64,000 nt of DNA. Origin: Bacilli bacterium. GTDB taxonomy: Bacteria; Bacillota_I; Bacilli_A; RF39; UBA660. Shown piece after piece: positions 23,549 through 53,121 of this stretch. The notes beneath the pieces are model-generated. The model saw only the letters and a program-made list of their open reading frames with translations. It had not been told where the DNA came from and did not search any database. Numbering within the stretch: the first letter of the stretch is position 1; each line of letters starts with the position of its first letter. A program made the position numbers and the translations under genes. The stretch covers positions 1 through 64,000 of the forward strand of contig JAFUTX010000013.1 of assembly GCA_017484065.1 (NCBI GenBank), read 5' to 3'.

Positions 23549-24925
23549 TTATATTGATAATTGATATGGATTAGTAGATGTTCCTGCTCCTCCAGTTATT
23601 TTAACATTTGATTTTAAATACAAAACAGGACGAACACCTTTATCTTGACTTGATGTAGTATCTACAACATATCCATTTGAATTTATATAAACAGTCCAGC
23701 TAGAAGAATCGTGTGCTTTAGTTAACGTCCATTGGCTGTTACTAGTGTCAATCAACCAATCTTCTGTATAACAATCATTATAATTAGATAGTGCTTTAGT
23801 AAGACATGAAGCCCTTAATGAACCGCCAACGGCAAATCCATAATCACTTGGATATAGTAATCCAACAAAAGAACTATAGCTTGATTGCCTATTACTATAT
23901 GTTTTATTACTTCTTTCTGCTTGATACCATTGGCTAGCATTTATACTTTCCACATAATCATTATTCTCTTCAGTTGTTGATGAATATCCTCCTAAATAAT
24001 ACATTGCTTTATCAATTAAATTTTTATTATTTAAAGAATTATAATACTCATTATTTAAATAATTATATAGTGACGAAGATTGCCAAGCAGTATCTCCCAG
24101 ATTCCATTTCATTTCTCCCAAACTACTATTTAAAATTATTTTCATTCTTTTTTCTTTAGTGCCATTACCATCATCTACATTATTCATAACACCAATAATA
24201 CGCCATAACTCTCCATTAAATGATACATAATTATTAGGATTAGCTCCAATATATCTTAAGTTGTTATCACTTGTTCCATCGTAAGCTAATGATGTGTCTC
24301 CTTTTTCATATAATCTTGTTATAACCTCTGTAGCTTGATCCCAAAATACTCCATCATCATCTAGAGGTCTTTCTTCATCTTCACTTTCATAACCATAATT
24401 ATAAAATGCTATTAAATTAACACCACTAGCAATGCTGCCATTTGTACTTATAACTTCACCATTTAAATCTTCATCAGAATAAACTTGATCACATAAACAT
24501 GTTGATATACCAGCAGGCTTATCACTTGAGAAAGTTGGGTTCTCATCATTTATATTAACCATTCCAGAATTGCCAATACTACCATCTTTATTAGCGATTA
24601 CATATTTCTTTATTAATTTTCCATTTTGTTTAGTTAATAGTACGCTACCTTCATAACCATCAGAAACACCTTTTTCATAGTAACCGTTTTGTTTTAAATA
24701 TTCCATAGATACACAAACACTATCATTATTTATCATGTTACCTTGATTAGCAGCATATGCTACTTCCGCTGACTTAACTAACGTTTTACCTTCATCAACA
24801 AGGGCTTTATTTTTACTTTTTCGCATAGTAGGAAGTATTGCTACTACAGCAATTAGCATAATTATTCCAAGTATTGCAATTACTGCTAATAATTCTACTA
24901 ATGTAAAACCTTTTTGTTTTTTCAT
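23549..24925 (-). CDS. Large prepilin with C-terminal lectin-like/DUF6273-like domain
   Basis: In this 458-residue protein the prepilin signal MKKQKGFTLVELLAVIAILG and the shared pilin blocks (DEGKTLVKSAEVAYAANQ, VCVSMEYLKQNGYYEKG) occupy about the first 140 residues. From about residue 230 a second domain follows: LRYIGANPNNYVSFNGELWR, later YPSDYGFAVGG, QWTLTKAHDSSSW and GVRPVLYLKSNVKI. The second domain is shared with the SipW-type proteins at 32920-38454 and 51241. Its C-terminal loop here is AT-rich, unlike the GC-rich loops in those at 32920 and 36082. The start at 24925 has AGGAGG 6 bases upstream. It is probably a pilus-borne adhesin. Confidence 0.82.
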   Translation of the reverse strand: MKKQKGFTLVELLAVIAILGIIMLIAVVAILPTMRKSKNKALVDEGKTLVKSAEVAYAANQGNMINNDSVCVSMEYLKQNGYYEKGVSDGYEGSVLLTKQNGKLIKKYVIANKDGSIGNSGMVNINDENPTFSSDKPAGISTCLCDQVYSDEDLNGEVISTNGSIASGVNLIAFYNYGYESEDEERPLDDDGVFWDQATEVITRLYEKGDTSLAYDGTSDNNLRYIGANPNNYVSFNGELWRIIGVMNNVDDGNGTKEKRMKIILNSSLGEMKWNLGDTAWQSSSLYNYLNNEYYNSLNNKNLIDKAMYYLGGYSSTTEENNDYVESINASQWYQAERSNKTYSNRQSSYSSFVGLLYPSDYGFAVGGSLRASCLTKALSNYNDCYTEDWLIDTSNSQWTLTKAHDSSSWTVYINSNGYVVDTTSSQDKGVRPVLYLKSNVKITGGAGTSTNPYQLSI

Positions 24926-24935
24926 ATTTTGCCTC

Positions 24936-26267
24936 CTATTTTTGGAATATATCATCGACATCAGTTATACCTTTACTGACAATTTTCTTATAAACTTTTG
25001 GTACATAATCATAAAGAATATATTCACCATCTACTTCGCCATTTTCGGTTAAACCTTTTTGTTTAAATGCAAATATTTCTTTTAGTTCAATATTATAGTC
25101 TTCTTTAATTCTTGTTAATTCACAAATACTAGTTACTTTTCTCTTACCATCGCTCATACGATCGATATTTACAACTATATCTAAAGCATTAAAGATGTAT
25201 TCTCTTACCGCCTTAATTGGAATATCAATCCCACTCATTAAAACCATCGTTTCAAGTCTATGTAAGGCATCTTCAGGGCCATTAGCATGGAGTGTAGTTA
25301 GAGACCCATCATGACCTGTATTCATTGCTTGTAACATATCAAATGCTTCTTTACCACGAACTTCTCCAACAATTATTCTATCTGGTCTCATACGAAGAGA
25401 ATTAATAACTAAATCTCTTATAGTTACTTCTCCTTCACTTTCATAATTCATCATTCTTGTTTCCAAACTTATAACATGTCCTTGATTTAACTTTAATTCA
25501 GCAGCATCTTCAATTGTTATAATACGTTCATCATGATTAATAAACGAACTCAAAACATTTAATAATGTAGTTTTACCACTACCAGTACCACCGCAGACTA
25601 AGATGTTTAATTTAGCTTCTACTGCCGCTTTTAAAAATCTAGCCATATATGGAGTCATTGACCCAATTCTAATAAATTCATCAATATCTGCCATGCTTTC
25701 TTTAAACTTACGAATAGTTACAACTGGTCCTTTAGTAGATAATGGTGGTATAACTGCATTAATACGACTACCATTTTCTAATCTAGAATCTACCATTGGA
25801 TTAGAAGCATCAATAGTTCTACCCATTGGTTGAATCATTCTTTGTACAGTTCTAATAATGTGTTCATCATTAATAAAACTAATGCTATCATCTTTAATTA
25901 TTTGGCCATCTATTTCGATATAAACCTCTTTAGGAGAATTAACCATTATTTCAGTTACATTCTTATCTTCTAATAACTCTGATATTGGTCCATAACCATT
26001 TATCTCATTATCAATTAAATTAAATAAATGACTTCTCTCTAAATTAGTTAAATCGTAACCTTCAATAGTAGCATCAATCTCATCATTAATCCATTCGTTA
26101 AGCAGTTTATCTTGAGGCATTTCTTTGTCAATTAGATTTTCTACTATTTTAGTTCTTAAATTATCTAATAGTTTTTTATCGGGAAATATATCGTAATCAG
26201 AAACAGAAGTTATATTATGAGTTTTATGTTCTATTTCAAATGCTTTACTAAGTCCACCTCTACTCAT
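24936..26267 (-). CDS. tadA: Tad pilus assembly ATPase TadA (CpaF)
   Basis: The 443-residue secretion motor has an N-terminal domain ([20 protein letters not shown]) and a C-terminal ATPase with Walker [18 protein letters not shown], the Asp box, and the Walker B/His box region [19 protein letters not shown] and [15 protein letters not shown]. These are hallmarks of the CpaF branch of the GspE/VirB11 ATPases. It overlaps the TadZ gene by 8 bases, with GGAGG just before its ATG. It should hydrolyse ATP to drive pilus assembly at the TadB/TadC platform. Confidence 0.93.
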
Positions 26268-27078: not shown

Positions 27079-28593
27079 TTATATTGATAATTGATATGGT
27101 TGTGAACTTGTACCTTGCCCACTAATTATTTTTACATTAGATTTTAAATACAATACTGGATATATATTATAATTATAAACAGAATCATAAGAATCAACAT
27201 TATAAAATATTGCAATAACTCCATCATCATTAGAACTAGGTGTCATTGTCCATTGATTATATTTGATCCATTTATTATTCAAACAAGATGAATAAGCGCT
27301 ATCATTCCATTCATATAATGATGAGGTTGAACACGCTGAACTATTTATTGCAGAGTAACCATAATCACTTGGATATATTAGTCCTACATAACCAGTCCAG
27401 CTAGTTGGATTACCATTATATGTGTTACCACTTCTTTCTGATTGATACCAATTAGATCTAGACATAGTTTTGTAGTCAGTAGAAGAACTAGACGTATAGC
27501 CGCCTAAATAATAAGTTGCCTTATCTATATAATTTCTATATTGAGAAAATAACCCATGTACTTTTTTTGAGTGTTCTTGATATTCAAAACTAAAATAATT
27601 CCATCTTGGTGTCCAAGAATTTTCCCCTTTATAAAGATCTCCAAATGCCATAAAATCGGCAGTGCCACTTTCATAATATAAATCCATTAATCTCTGAGTA
27701 GTTGACCCAACCCAATTATTACCATATTTCTCATTTTCTACACATGCACATTGAGAACAAGTCGTCTTCGTACATTCGTGATTCCACACCATATCGCCAA
27801 TAGGTACATCTTTAATTAATTTAACTCTTGTTTCACCAGCACTACTACTTGTTGATGATCCTTTAACATTATTCATAACCCCAATAATACGCCATAATTC
27901 ATTATTAAATGATACATAGTTATTAGGAGTTGCTCCTATATATCTTAGGTTATTATCACTTGTTCCATCATAAATAAGCGAAGTATCTCCTTTTTTATTC
28001 AGATTAGTAATATAATTTGAGGCTATAGTATTATCTATTATAGAACCATCACTATTATAAGCAATATTATAAAAAGCCACTTGGTTAACTCCACTAGCAA
28101 TGCTCCCATTTGTACTTTTAACTTCACCATTTAAATCGTCAGTTTTACTTACTTGATTACATAAACAATTTGAGATATTTTCACTTTTTGAAAAACTAAA
28201 TGTAGGGTTTGTATCACTATAATCAACCATACTTGATGAACCAATGCTACCTTCCTTATTTGATATAGCATATTTCTTAATTAGTTTACCATTTTGGTTA
28301 GTTAAGAGTACACTGCCTTCGTAACCATCAGAAATTCCTTTTTCATAATAACCATTCTGTTTTAAGTATTCCATTGATATACATACGCTTTCATTATCAA
28401 GCATATTGCCTTGATTAGCAGCGTAAGCAACCTCTGCTGATTTAACTAATGATTTACCTTCGTCTGTTAATGCATTGTTTTTTGCTTTTTGATTAGTAGG
28501 TAATACCGCTATTACAGCAATTAATATTATAACAGCAAGTATTGTAATAACCGCTAATAATTCAACTAATGTAAATCCATTTCTTTTTTTCAT
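27079..28593 (-). CDS. Large prepilin with C-terminal lectin-like/DUF6273-like domain
   Basis: The 504-residue protein is a close paralogue of the prepilin at 23549. Residues 1-140 carry MKKRNGFTLVELLAVITIL, DEGKSLVKSAEVAYAANQ and VCISMEYLKQNGYYEKG; Asn replaces the usual Lys or Arg before the Gly. The C-terminal domain runs from LRYIGATPNNYVSFNNELWR to YPVLYLKSNVKI. It has an extra insert with clustered Cys (CTKTTCSQCACVE, about residues 287-300) that could bind metal or form disulfides. It sits inside the Tad operon between the TadE-like genes and tadZ, so it is most likely a minor pilin or tip adhesin. Confidence 0.82.
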   Translation of the reverse strand: MKKRNGFTLVELLAVITILAVIILIAVIAVLPTNQKAKNNALTDEGKSLVKSAEVAYAANQGNMLDNESVCISMEYLKQNGYYEKGISDGYEGSVLLTNQNGKLIKKYAISNKEGSIGSSSMVDYSDTNPTFSFSKSENISNCLCNQVSKTDDLNGEVKSTNGSIASGVNQVAFYNIAYNSDGSIIDNTIASNYITNLNKKGDTSLIYDGTSDNNLRYIGATPNNYVSFNNELWRIIGVMNNVKGSSTSSSAGETRVKLIKDVPIGDMVWNHECTKTTCSQCACVENEKYGNNWVGSTTQRLMDLYYESGTADFMAFGDLYKGENSWTPRWNYFSFEYQEHSKKVHGLFSQYRNYIDKATYYLGGYTSSSSTDYKTMSRSNWYQSERSGNTYNGNPTSWTGYVGLIYPSDYGYSAINSSACSTSSLYEWNDSAYSSCLNNKWIKYNQWTMTPSSNDDGVIAIFYNVDSYDSVYNYNIYPVLYLKSNVKIISGQGTSSQPYQLSI

Positions 28594-29636: not shown

Positions 29637-29672
29637 CAAAAAAATACAACCTATATTTTATTAGATTGTATC
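29637..29672 (-). terminator. Terminator of truncated transposase copy
   Basis: ATACAA(C/T)CTA-type arms at about 29644-29653 and 29662-29671 pair across a short AT loop, with a T run on the minus strand. Confidence 0.65.
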
Positions 29673-30040
29673 TTTTTAACTTCTTCAATTGATAAGCCAG
29701 TAGTTTTTGATATTAATTCGATATTGATATTTTCTTTTATTAAATTTTTAGCAATTTCAATATTGCGTTGTTCAATTCCTTGCTCAATACCTTGTTCTTT
29801 AGCTTCTTCTAGTTCAGTATTATGAATTATTTCTCTTTCTTCTTCTTCTGTCATATATATTCTAAATGCTGGATCTTTATTAATATTAGTCATTATTTCC
29901 ATAAATTTATGGACCTCCTTATCGACTTTAGAAAACTTAGTTAACTCTTCTTTATTTAATCCAAGCATAACTAATAATTTGTTTTCTATTGCTTTCTTAT
30001 CTTGACTATACCGCAATATACTGACAAAGTCAATAAACAA
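29651..30040 (-). pseudogene. Truncated duplicate of a PD-(D/E)XK (Rpn-type) transposase gene
   Basis: The open frame codes for 129 residues, but only residues from about 13 on match the full copy at 30056: SQDKKAIENKLLVMLGLNKE through EEAKEQGIEQGIEQ is the same. The catalytic N-terminal domain is absent. The C-terminus differs from the full copy (LIKENINIELISKTTGLS), so this is the tail of a related but distinct copy joined at a shared block. No good ribosome binding site is seen. It is probably non-functional. Confidence 0.75.
29778..30016. repeat. Direct repeat, copy 1 (about 239 bp, near-identical to 30180-30418)
   Basis: This block inside the truncated transposase matches 30180-30418 with only a handful of substitutions, mostly silent. 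It encodes the same 80 or so residues in both genes. The near-identity implies a recent duplication or gene conversion. Confidence 0.9.
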
Positions 30041-30078
30041 AAAAAGATAACAAGCTTATAAAGCTTCTTGTATCTTTT
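30041..30078 (-). terminator. Terminator of the PD-(D/E)XK transposase gene
   Basis: AAGATAACAAGCTT pairs with AAGCTTCTTGTATCTT around ATA, and a T run follows on the minus strand. The stop of the gene at 30056 lies in the stem. Confidence 0.85.
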
Positions 30079-30964
30079 TAATTTCTTCAATACCTAAATT
30101 AGTAACTTGTGTTATATCTTGGATAGACATATTCATCTTTAATAATTTTTTAGCAATCTCAACTTTTTCTTGCTCGATGCCTTGTTCAATACCTTGTTCT
30201 TTAGCTTCTTCTAGTTCAGTATTATGAATTATTTCTCTTTCTTCTTCTTCTGTCATATATATTCTAAATGCTGGATCTTTATTAATATTAGTCATTATTT
30301 CCATAAATTTATGGACCTCCTTATCAACTTTAGAAAACTTAGTTAACTCTTCTTTATTTAATCCAAGCATAACTAGTAATTTGTTTTCTATCGCCTTCTT
30401 ATCTTGACTATACCACAAATTCAAGAAATAATCCATATTAATGTCATAAATGACAAAATTATCTACATAGAAATCTTGATTATCTTCTAATTCTATTACT
30501 TTATATCTTCTTATGGGTCTTATAGTTGTTGGTTTTCTTAATATTTCATTTTTATCATTTAACATAAGACCATATGAAAAATTAATTTGTAAATATAAAG
30601 TTTTTTGATTAAATAGCCCTCCTGATAAAGTCCCACCAGAATACATTTCACATATATATGCCATACTTTTAGGATGAACATATGGTTTATTAAAACTATT
30701 AACCTCTAGATCTATTTTACCTATGTCTGTATCTAATTTAATATCAGTTCTAAAGTCTTTGATATTAACATTTTTGTGTGAAACATCATTACTTAAAATA
30801 ATCATATCATTTATTTTGGTTTTTAATATAAACTCTAATAAAGATTTTAATAAATTTTTATTTTTTTCATCAAGCATAATAGTTTTAAAAGCTTTATCAC
30901 TACGAGCTGTATACCACTTATAATCAGAATCAGAAATTATTTCTTTAACTGCAGTTGTTGTTAT
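30056..30964 (-). CDS. PD-(D/E)XK nuclease family transposase (Rpn/PF12784 type)
   Basis: About 302 residues belong to the family proper: ITTTAVKEIISDSDYKWY, the catalytic region TDIKLDTDIGKIDLEVNSF, and MAYICEMYSGGTLSGGLFNQ, with a Gln/Glu-rich helical tail. The family is linked to RecA-independent recombination and spreads as IS-like genes. The frame is open to 31054, but a strong AAGGAGGTG lies just before an ATA codon at 30964, where homologues would start. Either ATA initiates or the ATG has mutated. The upstream part is probably not translated. Confidence 0.75.
   Translation of the reverse strand: MTTTAVKEIISDSDYKWYTARSDKAFKTIMLDEKNKNLLKSLLEFILKTKINDMIILSNDVSHKNVNIKDFRTDIKLDTDIGKIDLEVNSFNKPYVHPKSMAYICEMYSGGTLSGGLFNQKTLYLQINFSYGLMLNDKNEILRKPTTIRPIRRYKVIELEDNQDFYVDNFVIYDINMDYFLNLWYSQDKKAIENKLLVMLGLNKEELTKFSKVDKEVHKFMEIMTNINKDPAFRIYMTEEEEREIIHNTELEEAKEQGIEQGIEQEKVEIAKKLLKMNMSIQDITQVTNLGIEEIKKIQEAL
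30180..30418. repeat. Direct repeat, copy 2
   Basis: Partner of 29778-30016, located in the 3' half of the intact transposase gene. Confidence 0.9.
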
Positions 30965-31051
30965 TTTTTCACCTCCTTTTTTTTGAATTTTCCACCCAAA
31001 AACACTATAACACAACACCCATGTAGAACTTTGTCGAATTAGAGTAAAACG

Positions 31052-31084
31052 CAAAAAAAATAGATACTAATTAAAGTATCTATA
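31052..31084 (-). terminator. Terminator of uvrC
   Basis: ATAGATACT at 31060-31068 pairs with AGTATCTAT at 31075-31083, followed on the minus strand by a run of T. Confidence 0.85.
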
Positions 31085-32919: not shown

Positions 32920-34452
32920 CTAATATATAATGTAAGGATCAGTTGTAGTACCAGAACCACCAGCTATTTTAACTGTGGATTTCAGATAAAGAACTGGACG
33001 CACGCGATAAACGTTGTCCACGTTGTCGTCGAGGCTGACATATCCGTCGGTGCCCACAGAAACCGCATAGTCAGAGCCAGAGGCGCTTGGAGTTATTGTC
33101 CATTGATAATAACTGCTATCTAATAACCAGTCGTTATTTTTGCAATCACTTACATCATTACTATCCCAATTATATAATTCTTTAGCCATACACGCAGTTC
33201 TGTTTGTAGTAGTTTCTCCAGCTGTTGCATAACCATAATCACTTGGGTACATAAGAGCTACTACTCCTGTCCAACTAGTTGGATTACCACTGTAGACATT
33301 GCTACTTCTCTCAGCACTATAGTAATCATTTGCTGTCATTGTTTCATAATAATACTCTGCACTATCATCTTCTTGTGGTCCACCTAAATAGTAAGTTGCA
33401 GCTTCAGCTAAGCTTTTATCATAACTTCTAATACCAATATTAGTTAAATCAAATTTATTCCAACCAACATTTGCTTGTCCTCTTAATTTTCCATAATTGA
33501 ATTCTGTTGATACTGTTCTATTTAAATATGCAGAATTAAGAAGTGTTTTTAATGTTGCTTCATTCCAATTATTGTAATAATCTCCTTCGCTACATGTTCC
33601 ATTCCCTTGTAAATCACATTCAGCATCCCAATAGATATCACCTAATTCATCAGCTTTTATTATTTTTACTCTAGTTGCAGCATTACCACTCACAGTACCA
33701 CCATCTACGTTATTCATAACACCTATAATACGCCATAGTTCATCATTAAACCATACATAATTATCAGGATTAGCTCCGACATATCTTAAGTTGTTGTCAG
33801 TAGTTTCATCATATAAAAGTGATGTATCTCCATTAGTTTTTAATGCTGTTATGTAATCTACTGCAGTAGTAGATCCTGCATTATAATAAGAAGCACTAAT
33901 ACTAATTACACCTTTATATTGTTTATTTACCATAGTTTGTGGAGTATTCTCATCTAACCATAATCTAATAGTATGTTCATTAGTATCTAACGGATGTAAT
34001 ACTTTAGTAACTATCTTTCTTGTATCATAAGCAGTGCCTACACTACTATCTAATACTGAATCAGTAGTATTTAAACTTGCTAAATTACCATATATTACTC
34101 CATCTATCGATACTTTAATATATTGCAGATTAAGTCGATTAGCTGATGATACACTATCTAATCCTTCAATATTAATATCATAATTAAGTAAATTATCACA
34201 TGTATTTTCAATAGTAAATGTATGTCCTTCAGTACTATTACCATCAGTATCACTAACTGGTACTAGATTAGAAAAATCTATTTCTTCTGTTAAAGTTTCT
34301 ATATTATAATCTAAACAGTTAGCTGCTACTATACTATTAGTACCATTTTGACTATCACTAGTATTCCATAAAGCATAAGTAATACCTGCTACTAAAACAA
34401 TAAGTAATAATACTATTATTGATATTGTAAGTTTCTTTTTATTATCTTGCAT
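32920..34452 (-). CDS. SipW/TasA-type surface protein with a GC-rich variable C-terminus (likely DGR target)
   Basis: The 510-residue protein has an N-terminal signal/anchor (LTISIIVLLLIVLVAGITYA then LWNT) of the kind seen in SipW-processed TasA/camelysin-like proteins. A beta-rich domain follows (about residues 40-190; NCLDYNIETLTEEIDF, FTIENTCDNLLNYDINIEGL). The shared C-terminal domain begins at LRYVGANPDNYVWFNDELWR and ends in QWTITPSASGSDYAVSVG and RVRPVLYLKSTVKI. About 100 bases before the RPVLYLK segment are strikingly GC-rich, against an AT-rich gene. The domain resembles C-type-lectin or DUF6273-like folds; the ligand is unknown. Confidence 0.78.
   Translation of the reverse strand: MQDNKKKLTISIIVLLLIVLVAGITYALWNTSDSQNGTNSIVAANCLDYNIETLTEEIDFSNLVPVSDTDGNSTEGHTFTIENTCDNLLNYDINIEGLDSVSSANRLNLQYIKVSIDGVIYGNLASLNTTDSVLDSSVGTAYDTRKIVTKVLHPLDTNEHTIRLWLDENTPQTMVNKQYKGVISISASYYNAGSTTAVDYITALKTNGDTSLLYDETTDNNLRYVGANPDNYVWFNDELWRIIGVMNNVDGGTVSGNAATRVKIIKADELGDIYWDAECDLQGNGTCSEGDYYNNWNEATLKTLLNSAYLNRTVSTEFNYGKLRGQANVGWNKFDLTNIGIRSYDKSLAEAATYYLGGPQEDDSAEYYYETMTANDYYSAERSSNVYSGNPTSWTGVVALMYPSDYGYATAGETTTNRTACMAKELYNWDSNDVSDCKNNDWLLDSSYYQWTITPSASGSDYAVSVGTDGYVSLDDNVDNVYRVRPVLYLKSTVKIAGGSGTTTDPYIIY
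32979..33105 (-). other. Candidate DGR variable region A
   Basis: Between the conserved CAATGGACAATAACT and CCAGTTCTTTATCTG the coding strand carries codons such as AGC, GGC, GAC, TAT, TCT, AAC, GTT and CGC, far richer in G and C than the rest of the gene. It can be aligned with regions B and C but has one more codon. The differing positions are mainly NNY codons, as expected when AAY codons of a template are mutagenised at A. It lacks the RAD block of B and C, so it may have another template or be older. Confidence 0.65.
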
Positions 34453-34471: not shown

Positions 34472-36010
34472 TTAAATTCTTAATGTATATGGATTATTTT
34501 TTGTTCCTTCTCCACTTAAGATTTCTACTGAAGATTTAAGATAAAGTACTGGTAACACTCCCATTTCATAATAAGCTGATATTGGGAATATATAAGAGTC
34601 TCCCTCAATAACAAAATTATCGCTATAACCTGTACTTCTAGGTGTTAATGTATGAGAAATACTATCATCAAGCCAATTTGAATCCCATGTACAATCCTTT
34701 TTGTTTTTCCATTCATACAAAGCTATATCAGTGCAACGATTGCCAGATACAGTGGCATTAGACGCAAATCCATAATCACTTGGATACATTAATGCTATTA
34801 TACCAGTCCATGTTAAATCATTATTTTCTCCTTTATTTGTTCTTTCAGCAACATAAAAATCTCGTGCAGCTGCAGTGTTTTCATCTTGAGTAATAGGAGC
34901 CCCTAAATAATAAGTAGCAGGCTCTATAATATTTCTACTTTCTTCTTTAATTCCTTTAGATGTAAAATCATAATAATACCACGGATATTGAGAACTGGAC
35001 GGATAACTAATTGAAGAAGCATATAAATAGTATGCAGCAGAACCACGTTGAACACCAGATTTTTTATTAAATAAATATGCATCATTTAATAAATTTGCAA
35101 GTGTTGATTGTGCCCAATTGTTTGAATAATCAAAGTCAGGTGCTAAACAACCACCCTCTTTTTCTACACATTTAGAATCATAAGCTACGTATAGTAAATT
35201 AGGACCGATAAGTTTAACTCTAGTAGCATTTTCTCCGCTTGACTCGCCACCATCTATATTGTTCATTACACCAATAATACGCCATAACTCATCATTAAAT
35301 AATACATAATTATTAGGATTTTTCCCTACATATCTTAAATTATTATCACTTGTATTATCATATTCTAATTCAGAATTCTTGTTATTATAAAGTTTTGTAA
35401 TATATGCTGTAGCATTTTCACCAACATAATCTAGCATAACACTACCATTCAATGTTACCTTCCCTTGCCAAGTTTTACCTATTTCACTCTTTGGCGTTGT
35501 TTCATCCAGCCATATTTTTATTGTGTGTGTTTTATTAATATTTTTATTTGCTGGATCTAATATTCCTGTATATATTTTTCTTGAGTCATAACTTACATTA
35601 TTATTTAATAAAGAAGTAGTTTTATCAAGCGTACCTAGTAATCCAACCTTATCATTGTCAATACTAACATTCATATAGTTAATGTCAAAATAGTCAGAAG
35701 AGGGTAAACCATCTATATTTAGACTTTCTAAATTAACTTCATATTTAACAGCAGTTTCACAATTATTAACTATACTAAATGTATAACCAGGTAGAAACTC
35801 ACTTTCGCTATCAATTATAGGAATAGCATCATTTAAAGTAATGCCACTAGATTCATCGGTGTAAGTGATATCTAAACATGACATAGCTGCTATATTCTTA
35901 TTAGTTTGTTTAGTTTTTGTACTCCACACAGCATATGTAGAACCTAGTGATATTATTATAATTGTAACTATAACTATTAATACTATTATTTTTTTAGATT
36001 TAGAATTCAT
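34472..36010 (-). CDS. SipW/TasA-type surface protein, AT-rich (non-variable) paralogue
   Basis: The 512-residue protein has the same layout as its neighbours: signal/anchor KIIVLIVIVTIIIISLGSTY followed by AVWST, a TasA-like domain (SCLDITYTDESSGITL, FSIVNNCETAVKYEVNLESL) and the shared C-terminal domain (LRYVGKNPNNYVLFNDELWR through GVLPVLYLKSSVEI). The loop before the final strand is AT-rich with ordinary codons (HTLTPRSTGYSDNFVIEG), so it shows no sign of retro-mutagenesis. One Arg of the RPVLYLK motif is changed to Leu. It is a useful internal control for the GC-rich loops on both sides. Confidence 0.8.
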   Translation of the reverse strand: MNSKSKKIIVLIVIVTIIIISLGSTYAVWSTKTKQTNKNIAAMSCLDITYTDESSGITLNDAIPIIDSESEFLPGYTFSIVNNCETAVKYEVNLESLNIDGLPSSDYFDINYMNVSIDNDKVGLLGTLDKTTSLLNNNVSYDSRKIYTGILDPANKNINKTHTIKIWLDETTPKSEIGKTWQGKVTLNGSVMLDYVGENATAYITKLYNNKNSELEYDNTSDNNLRYVGKNPNNYVLFNDELWRIIGVMNNIDGGESSGENATRVKLIGPNLLYVAYDSKCVEKEGGCLAPDFDYSNNWAQSTLANLLNDAYLFNKKSGVQRGSAAYYLYASSISYPSSSQYPWYYYDFTSKGIKEESRNIIEPATYYLGAPITQDENTAAARDFYVAERTNKGENNDLTWTGIIALMYPSDYGFASNATVSGNRCTDIALYEWKNKKDCTWDSNWLDDSISHTLTPRSTGYSDNFVIEGDSYIFPISAYYEMGVLPVLYLKSSVEILSGEGTKNNPYTLRI

Positions 36011-36043: not shown

Positions 36044-36074
36044 GTGCCGGCGCGACGCCGCCCCGCAGCGGCAC
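36044..36074 (-). repeat. GC-rich hairpin just downstream of variable region B
   Basis: A 31-base segment with 27 G or C. GTGCCG at 36044-36049 pairs with CGGCAC at 36069-36074; alternatively two small hairpins form inside (CGGCG/CGCCG and GCCGC/GCGGC). It starts 8 bases after the stop of the gene at 36082 and is followed on the minus strand by TTTTT. DGR target genes often carry such a hairpin or cruciform just after the variable region. An unusually GC-rich terminator is the alternative. Confidence 0.7.
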
Positions 36075-36081
36075 GTATATA

Positions 36082-38454
36082 TTACACCCCTAATTGATAT
36101 GGTTGTGCACTTGTTCCTTGACCGCTCATAATCTTCGTCGTTGACTTTAGATATAGGACTGGGCGAAGACCGAAAGCAAGGGACGTGCTGCCACTGTAGA
36201 CACTGCCACCAGTGTACACATAAGCCACATAGTACGCATTATCAGCACGCGAAGTTATTGTCCATTGGGATATTGAACTATTATATAGCCAATCGCCACT
36301 TCTACAATCTCTCACATAAGTAGCACCCCAATTATATAATTCTTTAGCCATACATGCACTTCTGTTTGTAGTAGTTCCTCCAGCTGTTGCAAATGCATAA
36401 TCACTTGGGTACATAAGAGCTACTACTCCTGTCCAGCTGGTTGGATTACCACTATATACTGCACTACCTCTTTCTATAGTAGAGTACCAAGTATTAGCTG
36501 TTGCGTATAGATAATAATTGCTAGCTGATGAAGTAACAGAATATCCTCCTAAATAGTAAGTAGCTTCTTCTAATAGGTTTCTGCTAGCTTCACTTAAACC
36601 ATTACTACTATAATCAGCATATTGCCAACTATTATTTATATAATTATATGTAGTTGATGTTGTTCTATTTAAATATGCAGTATTTAGTAATGTGTTTACA
36701 CTTGCTGTTTCCCAGTTGTTATTATATGAGATAACTGATGTATCAGTTGATGTTCCACATGAATTATCTCCCGCTAAACGTTTTCTATCCCATGATATAT
36801 CACCTAAACTATCATTTCTTATTATTTTTACTCTAGTAGCTTTATCTCCTGAAGCAGTACCACCATCTACGTTATTCATAACACCTATTATACGCCATAA
36901 TTCACCATTAAATGATACATAGTTTTTAGGATTTCTGCCTACATATCTTAAGTTATTATCGCTTGTTCCATCATATACTAAACTGGTATCACCATTGTTA
37001 TATAAAGATTTTATATATCTAGTTGCATTTCCATTTTTAATTGGAGTCTCTGTTTTAATTTTATATGGATTACTTTTTGTACCGTTGCCATCAGCTACTA
37101 CTACTGAGGACTTCAGATAAAGGACTGGCCGCACGCCAAAACCGTTACCCGTGTCGTTGTAGCTGACACTGCCGCTAGTGCCCACACGAGTCACATAGCT
37201 CGCACCATCAGCACGCGGTGTCATTGTCCATTGATTATAAGAACTATTAAATATCCAACTACCATTAGGGCAAAAATTCTTATTACTATAGTCAACGCCT
37301 TGCGTTGTACTCCAAGATTTTAACCCGATTTTTAAGCAATCAGATAAATCACTACCATATTCAAGTCCATCACTTGAAGCAAGCTTTAATCCAGTTGTTG
37401 AAAAACCATAATCACTCGGATACATCAAACCTATTTTGCCAGTCCATGTAGTTGGATTACCACTATATATATCAGTACCTCGCTCAGCCGTATAAAAGCC
37501 ACTTGCAGTCAAATCTGTTCTATAGCTTCCCAAGTTATAAACTGCATCAGCTATGTAATCTTTGTTATTTAAACTATTATAATAATCCCCATTTAAATAA
37601 GTATTTAATGTGGCTGTTGCCCAATTATTTTTATTGTTAGAAGCCCATTGATAACCGCCTATACTATCAGCTCTAATAATTTTTACTCTACTTTCTTTAT
37701 TACCTGTACCATCATCTATGTTATTCATAACACCTATAATACGCCATAACTCATTATTAAACCAAATATAGTTATTAGGGTCTCTACCAATAAAACGTAG
37801 GTTATTATCTACTGTTTCATCATATCTTAAATTAGTTTTATCTTTTTTAGCTAGTTTAGTTAAATAAGTAGTAAATAATTCTTTATTAGTTGCAACACCA
37901 TATACCGTTACTTTACTATTATATAGTTTACCTTGTTCACTATTAGGAGCACTATTATTTAGCCACAATTTAAGTTCATAGTTTTTACTTTCTCCTGCTG
38001 CTAAATACTCAGTAGATAATATTCTAGTATCATAAGCTTCACCTGATTCTAAGTTAGAATCACCTTCTGGAAAGAATCCTACTATATCTTTGTCTATTAA
38101 AGCATCATCTGAATATAAAGCTACTTTAATATGATTAATATCCGCTCTATTTTCACTTGCTATTTCACTTAAGCTTTCTAAATTAATATTATATCTAACT
38201 GTACTAGTACAATCATTATGAATAGTGAATTTATAACCAGACTTATTTATACCAACATCATCAGGAGTTGGTACTTCATTAGCAAGTACTATATCATCAC
38301 TTTCATTTTCTATAGCTAAGTTAATACATGCTGCTGCTACTTCATCTTGTTCATCTATATTCTTATTTACTTGCCATAAAGCATAAGTAGTTCCTAATAC
38401 TCCTAATATAAGTATTGCTACTAAACAAATTATTATTTTTTTACGATTATTCAT
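36082..38454 (-). CDS. SipW/TasA-type surface protein with two C-terminal domains and two GC-rich variable loops (likely DGR target)
   Basis: The 790-residue protein has an anchor (KIIICLVAILILGVLGTTYA then LWQVN), a TasA-like domain to about residue 195, then the shared display domain twice. The first runs from LRFIGRDPNNYIWFNNELWR to GVRPVLYLKSSVVV, the second from LRYVGRNPKNYVSFNGELWR to GLRPVLYLKSTTKI. Each ends in a GC-rich loop: QWTMTPRADGASYVTRVGTS in the first and QWTITSRADNAYYVAYVYTG in the second. A tandem domain with two variable loops is unusual. Polyvalent display on the cell surface is inferred. Confidence 0.78.
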   Translation of the reverse strand: MNNRKKIIICLVAILILGVLGTTYALWQVNKNIDEQDEVAAACINLAIENESDDIVLANEVPTPDDVGINKSGYKFTIHNDCTSTVRYNINLESLSEIASENRADINHIKVALYSDDALIDKDIVGFFPEGDSNLESGEAYDTRILSTEYLAAGESKNYELKLWLNNSAPNSEQGKLYNSKVTVYGVATNKELFTTYLTKLAKKDKTNLRYDETVDNNLRFIGRDPNNYIWFNNELWRIIGVMNNIDDGTGNKESRVKIIRADSIGGYQWASNNKNNWATATLNTYLNGDYYNSLNNKDYIADAVYNLGSYRTDLTASGFYTAERGTDIYSGNPTTWTGKIGLMYPSDYGFSTTGLKLASSDGLEYGSDLSDCLKIGLKSWSTTQGVDYSNKNFCPNGSWIFNSSYNQWTMTPRADGASYVTRVGTSGSVSYNDTGNGFGVRPVLYLKSSVVVADGNGTKSNPYKIKTETPIKNGNATRYIKSLYNNGDTSLVYDGTSDNNLRYVGRNPKNYVSFNGELWRIIGVMNNVDGGTASGDKATRVKIIRNDSLGDISWDRKRLAGDNSCGTSTDTSVISYNNNWETASVNTLLNTAYLNRTTSTTYNYINNSWQYADYSSNGLSEASRNLLEEATYYLGGYSVTSSASNYYLYATANTWYSTIERGSAVYSGNPTSWTGVVALMYPSDYAFATAGGTTTNRSACMAKELYNWGATYVRDCRSGDWLYNSSISQWTITSRADNAYYVAYVYTGGSVYSGSTSLAFGLRPVLYLKSTTKIMSGQGTSAQPYQLGV
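36141..36267 (-). other. Candidate DGR variable region B
   Basis: On the coding strand it lies between CAATGGACAATAACT and CGCCCAGTCCTATATCTAAAG. Compared codon by codon with region C (both 32 codons), fixed residues are R, A, D, A, Y, V, V, T, G, S, V, T, F, G, R, P. The changed codons are pairs such as AAT/GGT, TAC/AGC, GCT/ACT, TAT/CGT, TAC/GGC, GGC/AAC and AGC/GAC. Most keep the third base and differ in the first two, the signature of mutated AAY codons. Confidence 0.72.
37107..37233 (-). other. Candidate DGR variable region C (internal)
   Basis: This is the end of the first display domain of the same protein. I count 59 G or C in the 96 bases from CCGCGT to CCAGTC (about 61%), against well under 35% in flanking coding sequence. 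It aligns without gaps to region B. Because the reading continues into a second domain, this would be a variable region located inside a gene rather than at its 3' end. Confidence 0.72.
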
Positions 38455-51240: not shown

Positions 51241-53055
51241 CTATTTTGATAATGTATAAGGTTTTAAAGAAGTCCCTTCTCCACCATCTATCTTAACTTC
51301 TGAATCAAGATATAATACTGGACGAATATTCCATGAGTAATATGCTGTTTTTGAACTCAAATTAGAATCATCATATATAAATGCTGCAGCTGTTCCATCA
51401 ATACGAGATGGTGTTATAGTCCATTGTGAATGATCAGCATTGCCTAGCCAATCTTCATCACGACATTCTTGAGACCAATGAGCAATGTCACGTTCAACAC
51501 AAGCAGTTTCATAAACTACCCCAGTTGAAGCATAGCCATAATCACTTGGATACATTAAAGCAATATTGCCTGTCCAGGAACCTGGATTGCCTTCATATAC
51601 ATAAGACGTATTTCTTTCAGCAACATACCATTCTGGTGGTAGCATATTAGAGTAATAACTATCGTATTTAGATTTAGTACTATAACCTCCTAAATAATAT
51701 GTAGCAGTATCTATTAAATTCTTATCAGACAAATTTCCATAGTAATCTGCTCCATTTAAATAAGCATTGGTAGAACTATGTTCCCAGTTATTATAATTGT
51801 ACCCGGTAGCTTGAGTAGCAGAATAAGCATAATTTAATAATAAATCAGCTTTAGCAATTTTTAATCTAGAATGCCCAGCCACACTAGTTGTTCCACCAGC
51901 AACATTATTCATAACCCCTATAATACGCCATAATTCTCCATTAAATGAAACATAGTTATTAGGATTAGCTCCGACATATCTTACATTATGATCTGTTGTT
52001 CCGTCATCAATAAGAGAAGTATCTCCCGCGGTTTTCAAACTCATTACATAATCTGTTGCAATTGCAGGTAAAGACATACCAGGAGTAGATGATGAAGTAG
52101 TAGCTAATGCTCTTTCTAAGTATATAACGTCACTTGTACTTAATACTCCATCTAAATCTATATCTCCAAGTACCTTAATTAATGGATTAGCAGTAGTTAA
52201 GTTTTTTCTTAAAACATATACATCGCTACGATCTACTACTCCATCATTATTTACATCACCTTTTTTATATAATGATGATGAACTACCAGAAATATAATTC
52301 TCTACTGCAGTACTATCATTACTATTAATTACTCCATCAGCATTAACATCTGCTAATGATTTTTGACTTGTAGAAGCAGAACTTGGACTAGCTATTATAC
52401 CAGATAATATAGATGAATCATCAGAATTAACTTCTCCATCTTTATTGATATCTCCCATCTCATACAATGGATATGATTTTTCATTAGCATTTTCTCCACT
52501 TATAGTTATTTTACCGCTATAACTTTTATTCATTTCACTTGTAGGAGCATACTTATCAATCCATAGTCTTAACTTATAAGTTATTGTATAACCTTCACTT
52601 CCTACTGGTGATAATACTCCGCTAGTTAATGCCTTGGCATCATCTGCTACTGTATTAGCAAGTATTTGTATGCCATTATTATAATTTGATAATAATTCAA
52701 CTGGTTCATCATCTAATACAGCATTAATGCTTGATAGTTGTAACCTATCGTTATTAATTAAACTTTCCAAGTTTACGGTATATGCAATATACCCATCACA
52801 TCTATTTGTCAATGTGAATTCATATCCTTCTAAGTTCATTCCTTCTTCATCACTTATTGGATAAGTACTAGATAGTTTTACACCTGTTTTACCTACTACA
52901 GTATCTTTGAATTCTAGACTTAAACATGTTGTTCCTACTACGTTTTCATCTTCTTGTGTTTGAGTTGTAGTCCAATATGCATATGTACTACTTAAAACTA
53001 CTATAGCCAATAATAAAACAGTTAAAATATAATATTTTACTTTATTATTTTTCAT
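51241..53055 (-). CDS. SipW/TasA-type surface protein with dockerin-like repeats and the shared display domain
   Basis: The 604-residue protein has the N-terminus KYYILTVLLLAIVVLSSTYA then YWTT, like other SipW-type anchors, and a TasA-like domain (about 40-195). Four calcium-binding loops follow: GDINKDGEVNSDD, ADVNADGVINSND, GDVNNDGVVDRSD and GDIDLDGVLSTSD, i.e. two dockerin type I modules. The shared C-terminal domain runs from VRYVGANPNNYVSFNGELWR to NIRPVLYLDSEVKI. Its last loop is AT-rich, so no DGR signal. The start at 53055 has GGAAGG upstream. Dockerins normally bind cohesins; none is visible here. Confidence 0.82.
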   Translation of the reverse strand: MKNNKVKYYILTVLLLAIVVLSSTYAYWTTTQTQEDENVVGTTCLSLEFKDTVVGKTGVKLSSTYPISDEEGMNLEGYEFTLTNRCDGYIAYTVNLESLINNDRLQLSSINAVLDDEPVELLSNYNNGIQILANTVADDAKALTSGVLSPVGSEGYTITYKLRLWIDKYAPTSEMNKSYSGKITISGENANEKSYPLYEMGDINKDGEVNSDDSSILSGIIASPSSASTSQKSLADVNADGVINSNDSTAVENYISGSSSSLYKKGDVNNDGVVDRSDVYVLRKNLTTANPLIKVLGDIDLDGVLSTSDVIYLERALATTSSSTPGMSLPAIATDYVMSLKTAGDTSLIDDGTTDHNVRYVGANPNNYVSFNGELWRIIGVMNNVAGGTTSVAGHSRLKIAKADLLLNYAYSATQATGYNYNNWEHSSTNAYLNGADYYGNLSDKNLIDTATYYLGGYSTKSKYDSYYSNMLPPEWYVAERNTSYVYEGNPGSWTGNIALMYPSDYGYASTGVVYETACVERDIAHWSQECRDEDWLGNADHSQWTITPSRIDGTAAAFIYDDSNLSSKTAYYSWNIRPVLYLDSEVKIDGGEGTSLKPYTLSK

Positions 53056-53121
53056 AAACACACCTTCCTCTATTATTACTATTTAACTATAACAAATTTT
53101 TTAAATTATAGCAAGATAACT

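Follow-up and report, generated by a model that had tools for sequence, protein, structure and literature searches.

Tandem display domains in one surface protein of a bacterium of the Bacilli, with a candidate live variable loop at the end of the chain and a putatively retired one inside it

The window analyzed here, a stretch of 64,000 nucleotides from an assembly of a gut bacterium of the Bacilli, carries on its minus strand an open reading frame (36082..38454) for a 790-amino-acid surface protein with tandem display domains of the DUF6273 type (PF19789), matched in two stretches with a Pfam score of 28.4 bits, above the gathering cut-off of 23.5. Judging from the translation, the N-terminal part (37888..38454, minus strand), for which no NCBIfam match was found, would combine a hydrophobic anchor or signal, with the motif TYALW, and a stalk-like domain. 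Comparison of the domains with each other delimited the internal display domain C (37054..37887) and the C-terminal display domain B (36085..37053), both on the minus strand, which are 51% identical and each terminate in ...RPVLYLKS. GC content reaches 0.50 to 0.55 at 37100-37250 and 36050-36250, compared with about 0.25 to 0.35 in the flanks. The GC-rich loops lie at 37111-37206 (loop C) and 36145-36240 (loop B), with GC contents of 0.55 and 0.49, respectively, over stretches of 126 nt. A preliminary description of this DNA had proposed two display domains in tandem with GC-rich loop ends, the internal loop lying ca. 1.0 kb ahead of the stop codon. The domain identity and the rise in GC confirm this arrangement, the position of loop C was as described, and we agree that an internal location is unusual.

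The predicted fold of domain B (AF2 model with a mean pLDDT of 65, from a shallow alignment of 8 sequences) matched 9qa6 with a Z score of 11.7 over 215 residues, the only strong match in the PDB, while a sequence-profile search of solved structures gave nothing significant. In the available text of two reports, the N-terminal domain of 9qa6, an IgA peptidase of T. ramosa, is called C-type lectin-like (PMC12237041) and DUF6273 (PMC12402451); there, it is part of a protease and not a DGR target. DUF6273 is also described as the C-type lectin domain of phage targets named tentaclins (PMC10743442), and the variable region (VR) sits at the C-terminal end of DUF6273 in the targets of Faecalibacterium prophages (PMC11792537). 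These domains are probably C-type lectin-like, and surface binding is the likely function of the protein.

Two single-domain paralogues, identified in the loop survey, adjoin the gene on the same minus strand, one (paralogue A, 32920..34452) with a GC-rich loop at about 32980-33080 and the other (34472..36010) with an AT-rich, decayed loop, neither followed by a hairpin. The genome encodes a second two-domain protein (contig C1, 829 amino acids), with both loops decayed and hairpin-less. Elsewhere in the window, at 23549-24961 and 27079-28593, members of the display-domain family are fused to type IV prepilin N termini in a pilus-like cluster, and their loops are likewise decayed and without hairpin. 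A relative of the display domain at 51241-53061 bears dockerin-like repeats. At 29651-31054, two adjoining genes, which we take to be of the Rpn/PD-(D/E)XK-like kind, share a direct repeat of 300 nt (88%). We also considered as DGR targets the tandem DUF6273 proteins of three other genomes (G060, G020, and G089), but their readable loops were AT rich and showed no sign of targeting. No strain-level relative was found, and viral contigs gave no relative to a search with a single domain or to one with an alignment.

The assembly (32 contigs, 1.19 Mb, 93% complete) contains 33 domain matches. Omitting two short N-terminal pieces left 31 domains, and omitting two others that were cut by contig ends (C6:64049 and C31:53) left 29 loops. 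A GC-rich DGR homing hairpin, located by pattern search and covariation, lies just after the stop codon that follows loop B (36044..36074, minus strand), and only three other loops (C30:1861, C19:421, and C24:17556) have one, again immediately after the stop. The same four places, each behind the stop codon of a DUF6273-type gene, were the only ones recovered when the pattern was searched across the whole assembly, where the reversed control gave no matches. Together with the hairpin of a sister species (G001), the five sequences were 93.8% paired, with four pairs changed on both sides, a result obtained in 0 of 500 shuffles. The preliminary description had suggested looking for a hairpin after loop C: neither the survey of 29 loops nor the whole-assembly search found any there, after the two single-domain neighbors, or after the remaining loops. 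Hairpin-bearing loops had GC contents of 0.49 to 0.56, versus a median of 0.38 for the other 25 (P = 0.004), four of which, including loop C and that of neighbor A, still have 0.50 to 0.57. This spread could represent an aging series in an AT-rich genome. The hairpin of loop B has one mispair and lies about 70 nt beyond the IMH, versus 4 to 34 bp between hairpin and VR in phage DGRs (PMC3240598). In BPP-1, efficient homing needs the hairpin (PMC3240598), although residual homing independent of it is described in the available text (PMC3240598 and PMC12875486).

Paralogue comparison places the core of loop B, the candidate live variable region, at 36172..36240 (minus strand). Against its closest paralogue (C30), 27 of the 69 core sites differ (39%), but only 144 of the other 916 positions in the common 985 bp (P = 7e-6) and 3 of 48 on the IMH side. 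The IMH-like end of loop B (36145..36171, minus strand) is common to other hairpin-bearing targets by scaffold comparison: over the last 39 nt, loop B has 6 differences to C30, 6 to C19, and 14 to loop C. The hairpin-bearing C24 target, which has its own template repeat (TR), differs from loop B at 13 of 39 positions. On the minus strand of domain C, the loop survey and mismatch test define a core, the putative retired variable region with no hairpin downstream, at 37138..37206, followed by an IMH-like 3' end at 37111..37137, presumably of an older scaffold. B, C30, and C19 thus share one 3' scaffold, while that of C is a different and presumably older one.

Since the TR that wrote loop B is missing from the assembly, its A specificity had to be tested through proxies, using the TR of sister species G001 (30 A columns and 63 others) as a yardstick; with 28 pairwise tests among related sequences, the P values are indicative only. 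Between B and C, 18 of 30 A columns differ versus 15 of 63 others (P = 8e-4). This bias is weaker than those of B with C19 (P = 9e-5) and C30 with C19 (P = 4e-5), both strong hairpin-bearing pairs, and than that of C with the hairpin-less paralogue C24:46927, its best scaffold partner (18 of 30 A columns and 4 of 63 others; P = 4e-8). Pairs of decayed paralogues had pooled odds of 1.8 at A columns, and 5 of 210 were at least as biased as B and C. A codon-position test between loops was uninformative (third-position share of mismatches, 0.22 to 0.46 in 21 pairs, versus 0.38 in pooled decayed pairs). The preference of B-C mismatches for template-A columns, as well as the IMH-like end and high GC of loop C, would fit independent editing of two live loops from a single template, with slower rewriting of the internal loop for want of a hairpin. 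We consider this unlikely, given that no hairpin follows C, that its 3' scaffold is unlike that of B, and that its best scaffold partner is itself hairpin-less. The hairpin behind B only and the differing scaffolds therefore do not suggest equal, independent editing, and the possibility raised earlier, that a single template targets both loops, was not supported as a description of their present state.

The diversity-generating retroelement (DGR) of this genome is real. A family search of the genome gave two RT matches at 114.3-116.2 kb of contig C15, to which the window belongs, and genes for a MutS_I-like protein, Avd, and RT lie on its minus strand about 78 kb from the tandem gene. Exon 1 of the RT matches 8ub7_A (E = 3e-17), presumably a DGR enzyme, which identifies it as a DGR-type RT, and we take its GNMTSQ motif to be DGR-like. 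The adjacent gene was counted as Avd with E values of 8e-6 (bAvd) and 3e-8 (DivGenRetAVD), both below the curated cut-offs, and sequence search found no solved relative of it. To our knowledge, the DGR of BPP-1 has no MutS_I-like gene. Sister species G001 has the full series, running from the target with its VR through hairpin, TR, spacer, MutS_I, and Avd to the RT, and all 15 TR/VR mismatches in a 70-nt window fall at A in the TR. A-specific TR/VR pairs were found at 14 of 25 named loci (omitting a low-complexity match at L140) and at 6 of 16 genome loci. These DGR genes, with an A-specific TR/VR pair in this very genome, uphold the earlier view that both loops are variable regions of the DGR type.

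Several related loci had peculiarities of their own. The DGR RT of a related bacterium (L142, 1228-5186) stops abruptly at the motif GLPIG and is followed by three genes that look, by inspection, tyrosine-recombinase-like. A second DGR RT in another genome (L216, G026:C10, 3993-5091) has its frame broken after GNMT. Two template-like repeats ca. 310 nt apart (L131, 8626 and 8939) both match one VR.

A group II intron of 1,914 nt with its own RT/maturase interrupts the only DGR RT gene found in this genome, outside the window and within G000:C15 113.4-116.4 kb (L003 13443-16442). The intron starts with GTGCG and ends with CTCGAT, both ends have Rfam matches, the maturase reading frame is intact, and its CATCCA matches TGGATG, the final six bases of the exon, in the manner of EBS1/IBS1. 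Joining the short exon flanks yields ...YYIRYMDDFILIHP..., which gives YMDDFILIHP in frame; because the exon joint restores this motif, the intron must be inserted within the codons for the catalytic YMDD. By these signals, the intron looks intact and spliceable. Within the partial texts available, nothing evident on a DGR with an intron insertion or interruption emerged from the literature, which is weak evidence of novelty.

Upstream of MutS_I, contig C15 continues for only 155 nt and does not reach the position that the TR occupies in the sister species; an RT-adjacent template, if present, would therefore be unassembled. A AGTGGGGAG-type repeat occurs near the ends of C15 and C19, in C22, and after target genes, and such repeats may be the cause of assembly breaks. 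A search of the genome for a template of loop B gave only gene loops and chance-level matches at E values of up to 10. A second TR, adjoining a hairpin-bearing target, does exist at C24:17305-17396 (minus strand), where 18 of 19 TR/VR mismatches fall at A, and no RT lies beside it. It belongs to a stand-alone TR/VR cassette (L096 17305-17500, G000:C24) that has TR plus spacer but neither RT nor Avd, and a glycosyltransferase-like gene comes next; the TR spacer is single copy in the genome, at C24. As the writer of loop B, the C24 template was rejected, since loop B and the C24 VR showed no A-column bias (P = 0.5). Because C15 carries the sole DGR RT that was found and the C24 TR has none beside it, the enzyme seems to act in trans on the C24 template, although another RT could be absent from an assembly that is 93% complete. 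For loop B, we infer action of the RT in trans as well, with a template that the assembly lacks.

The split RT and the absence of an RT-adjacent template from the assembly could also mean that the DGR is dead, through the intron and the loss of its template, and that both loops are fossils. This seems quite unlikely, as the intron has the hallmarks of splicing described above, from the Rfam ends to the in-frame YMDDFILIHP, the C24 TR/VR pair is clean, and the contig stops before the position of the TR in the sister species. That no DGR was involved and that a family of tandem lectin domains simply diverged, with loops under diversifying selection, is very improbable. The family does include tandem DUF6273 proteins without DGR-like loops, and decayed pairs are mildly biased to the same columns; however, DGR genes, hairpins, and A-specific TR/VR pairs are present in this genome and its relatives, and for loop B the hairpin and the hypervariable core largely refute such a reading.

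The origin of the tandem can be traced on one side. Window positions 36045-37029 are 81% identical to C30:1729-2713 over about 988 bp that include domain, loop, stop codon, and hairpin, where the homology stops. Domain B with its hairpin looks like an appended module; because the homology extends through the hairpin, an older gene seems to have acquired a hairpin-bearing target module at its end. In a related bacterium (L132), a two-domain protein of 737 amino acids is encoded close to the DGR. Of 64 non-A positions compared with the assembled TR, 15 are mismatched in the internal loop, 5 in the terminal loop (P = 0.013 for the difference between these two), and 1 in the cognate VR. The inner loop is by this measure the older one, in parallel with loop C. 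Since the internal loop is decayed and neither loop, the terminal one included, has a hairpin, we rejected L132 as an example with both loops live.

The reading that we favor, with a probability of about 0.7, is that of one DGR target in which loop B serves as the variable region at present, whereas loop C did so formerly and is now frozen. The RT with Avd would copy template RNA with errors at A, and the cDNA would replace a loop marked by its 3' end (IMH) and a downstream DNA hairpin; with a hairpin behind it alone, B would be the candidate edited loop. Domain B, loop, stop codon, and hairpin were probably attached together, as a single module, to the end of an older target gene, which would have made the older loop internal and left it hairpin-less. 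Continued editing of B, its cessation in C, and the order of these events are what we infer from the sequences. Against this reading, loop C retains a GC content of 0.55 and an IMH-like end, and for that reason, it may have been active recently.

Multi-VR proteins are already in print. In the available text of one survey, 31 of 271 multi-VR DGRs have several VRs in one ORF (PMC6642488), a likeness in having more than one VR per target, although a distinction between live and retired VRs is not evident there. In Thiohalocapsa PB-PSB1 (PMC10907252), targets of DGR 4/5 have three tandem C-type lectin domains with VRs, the third of which varies more often at some sites. That system resembles ours in its several variable lectin domains per chain and its remote, in-trans targets. 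The differences, as far as the available text goes, are that its VRs are reported to vary, that its domain partners are others (vWA, conflict systems), and that the internal loop here has no hairpin and is on another scaffold. Phage targets (PMC10743442 and PMC11792537) have the same DUF6273 domain, but they are phage proteins, with two VRs in two genes rather than in one chain. With BPP-1, as described in the available text (PMC3240598 and PMC12875486), the shared elements are Avd, RT, IMH, and a downstream GC-rich hairpin, but its target adjoins the RT, unlike the tandem gene. What is notable here is probably that a single chain joins a live loop to a retired one.

The presence of a hairpin, together with a 3' scaffold common to current targets, would provide a sequence rule to tell live from retired VRs. 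Tentatively, and as a possibility that we still hold to be doubtful, the family could work as a ratchet in which a useful loop is fixed by losing its hairpin or by the arrival of a new hairpin-bearing domain behind it, so that one chain combines a fixed and a diversifying site and retired loops are stored in the genome as a graded archive, with rewriting maybe gated by splicing of the intron in the YMDD codons. Placed as it is within these catalytic codons, the intron would turn splicing into a switch of hypermutation. The findings suggest a way in which targeted hypermutation could leave lasting products, finished loops that are kept in the genome and even in the same chain as the loop that varies.
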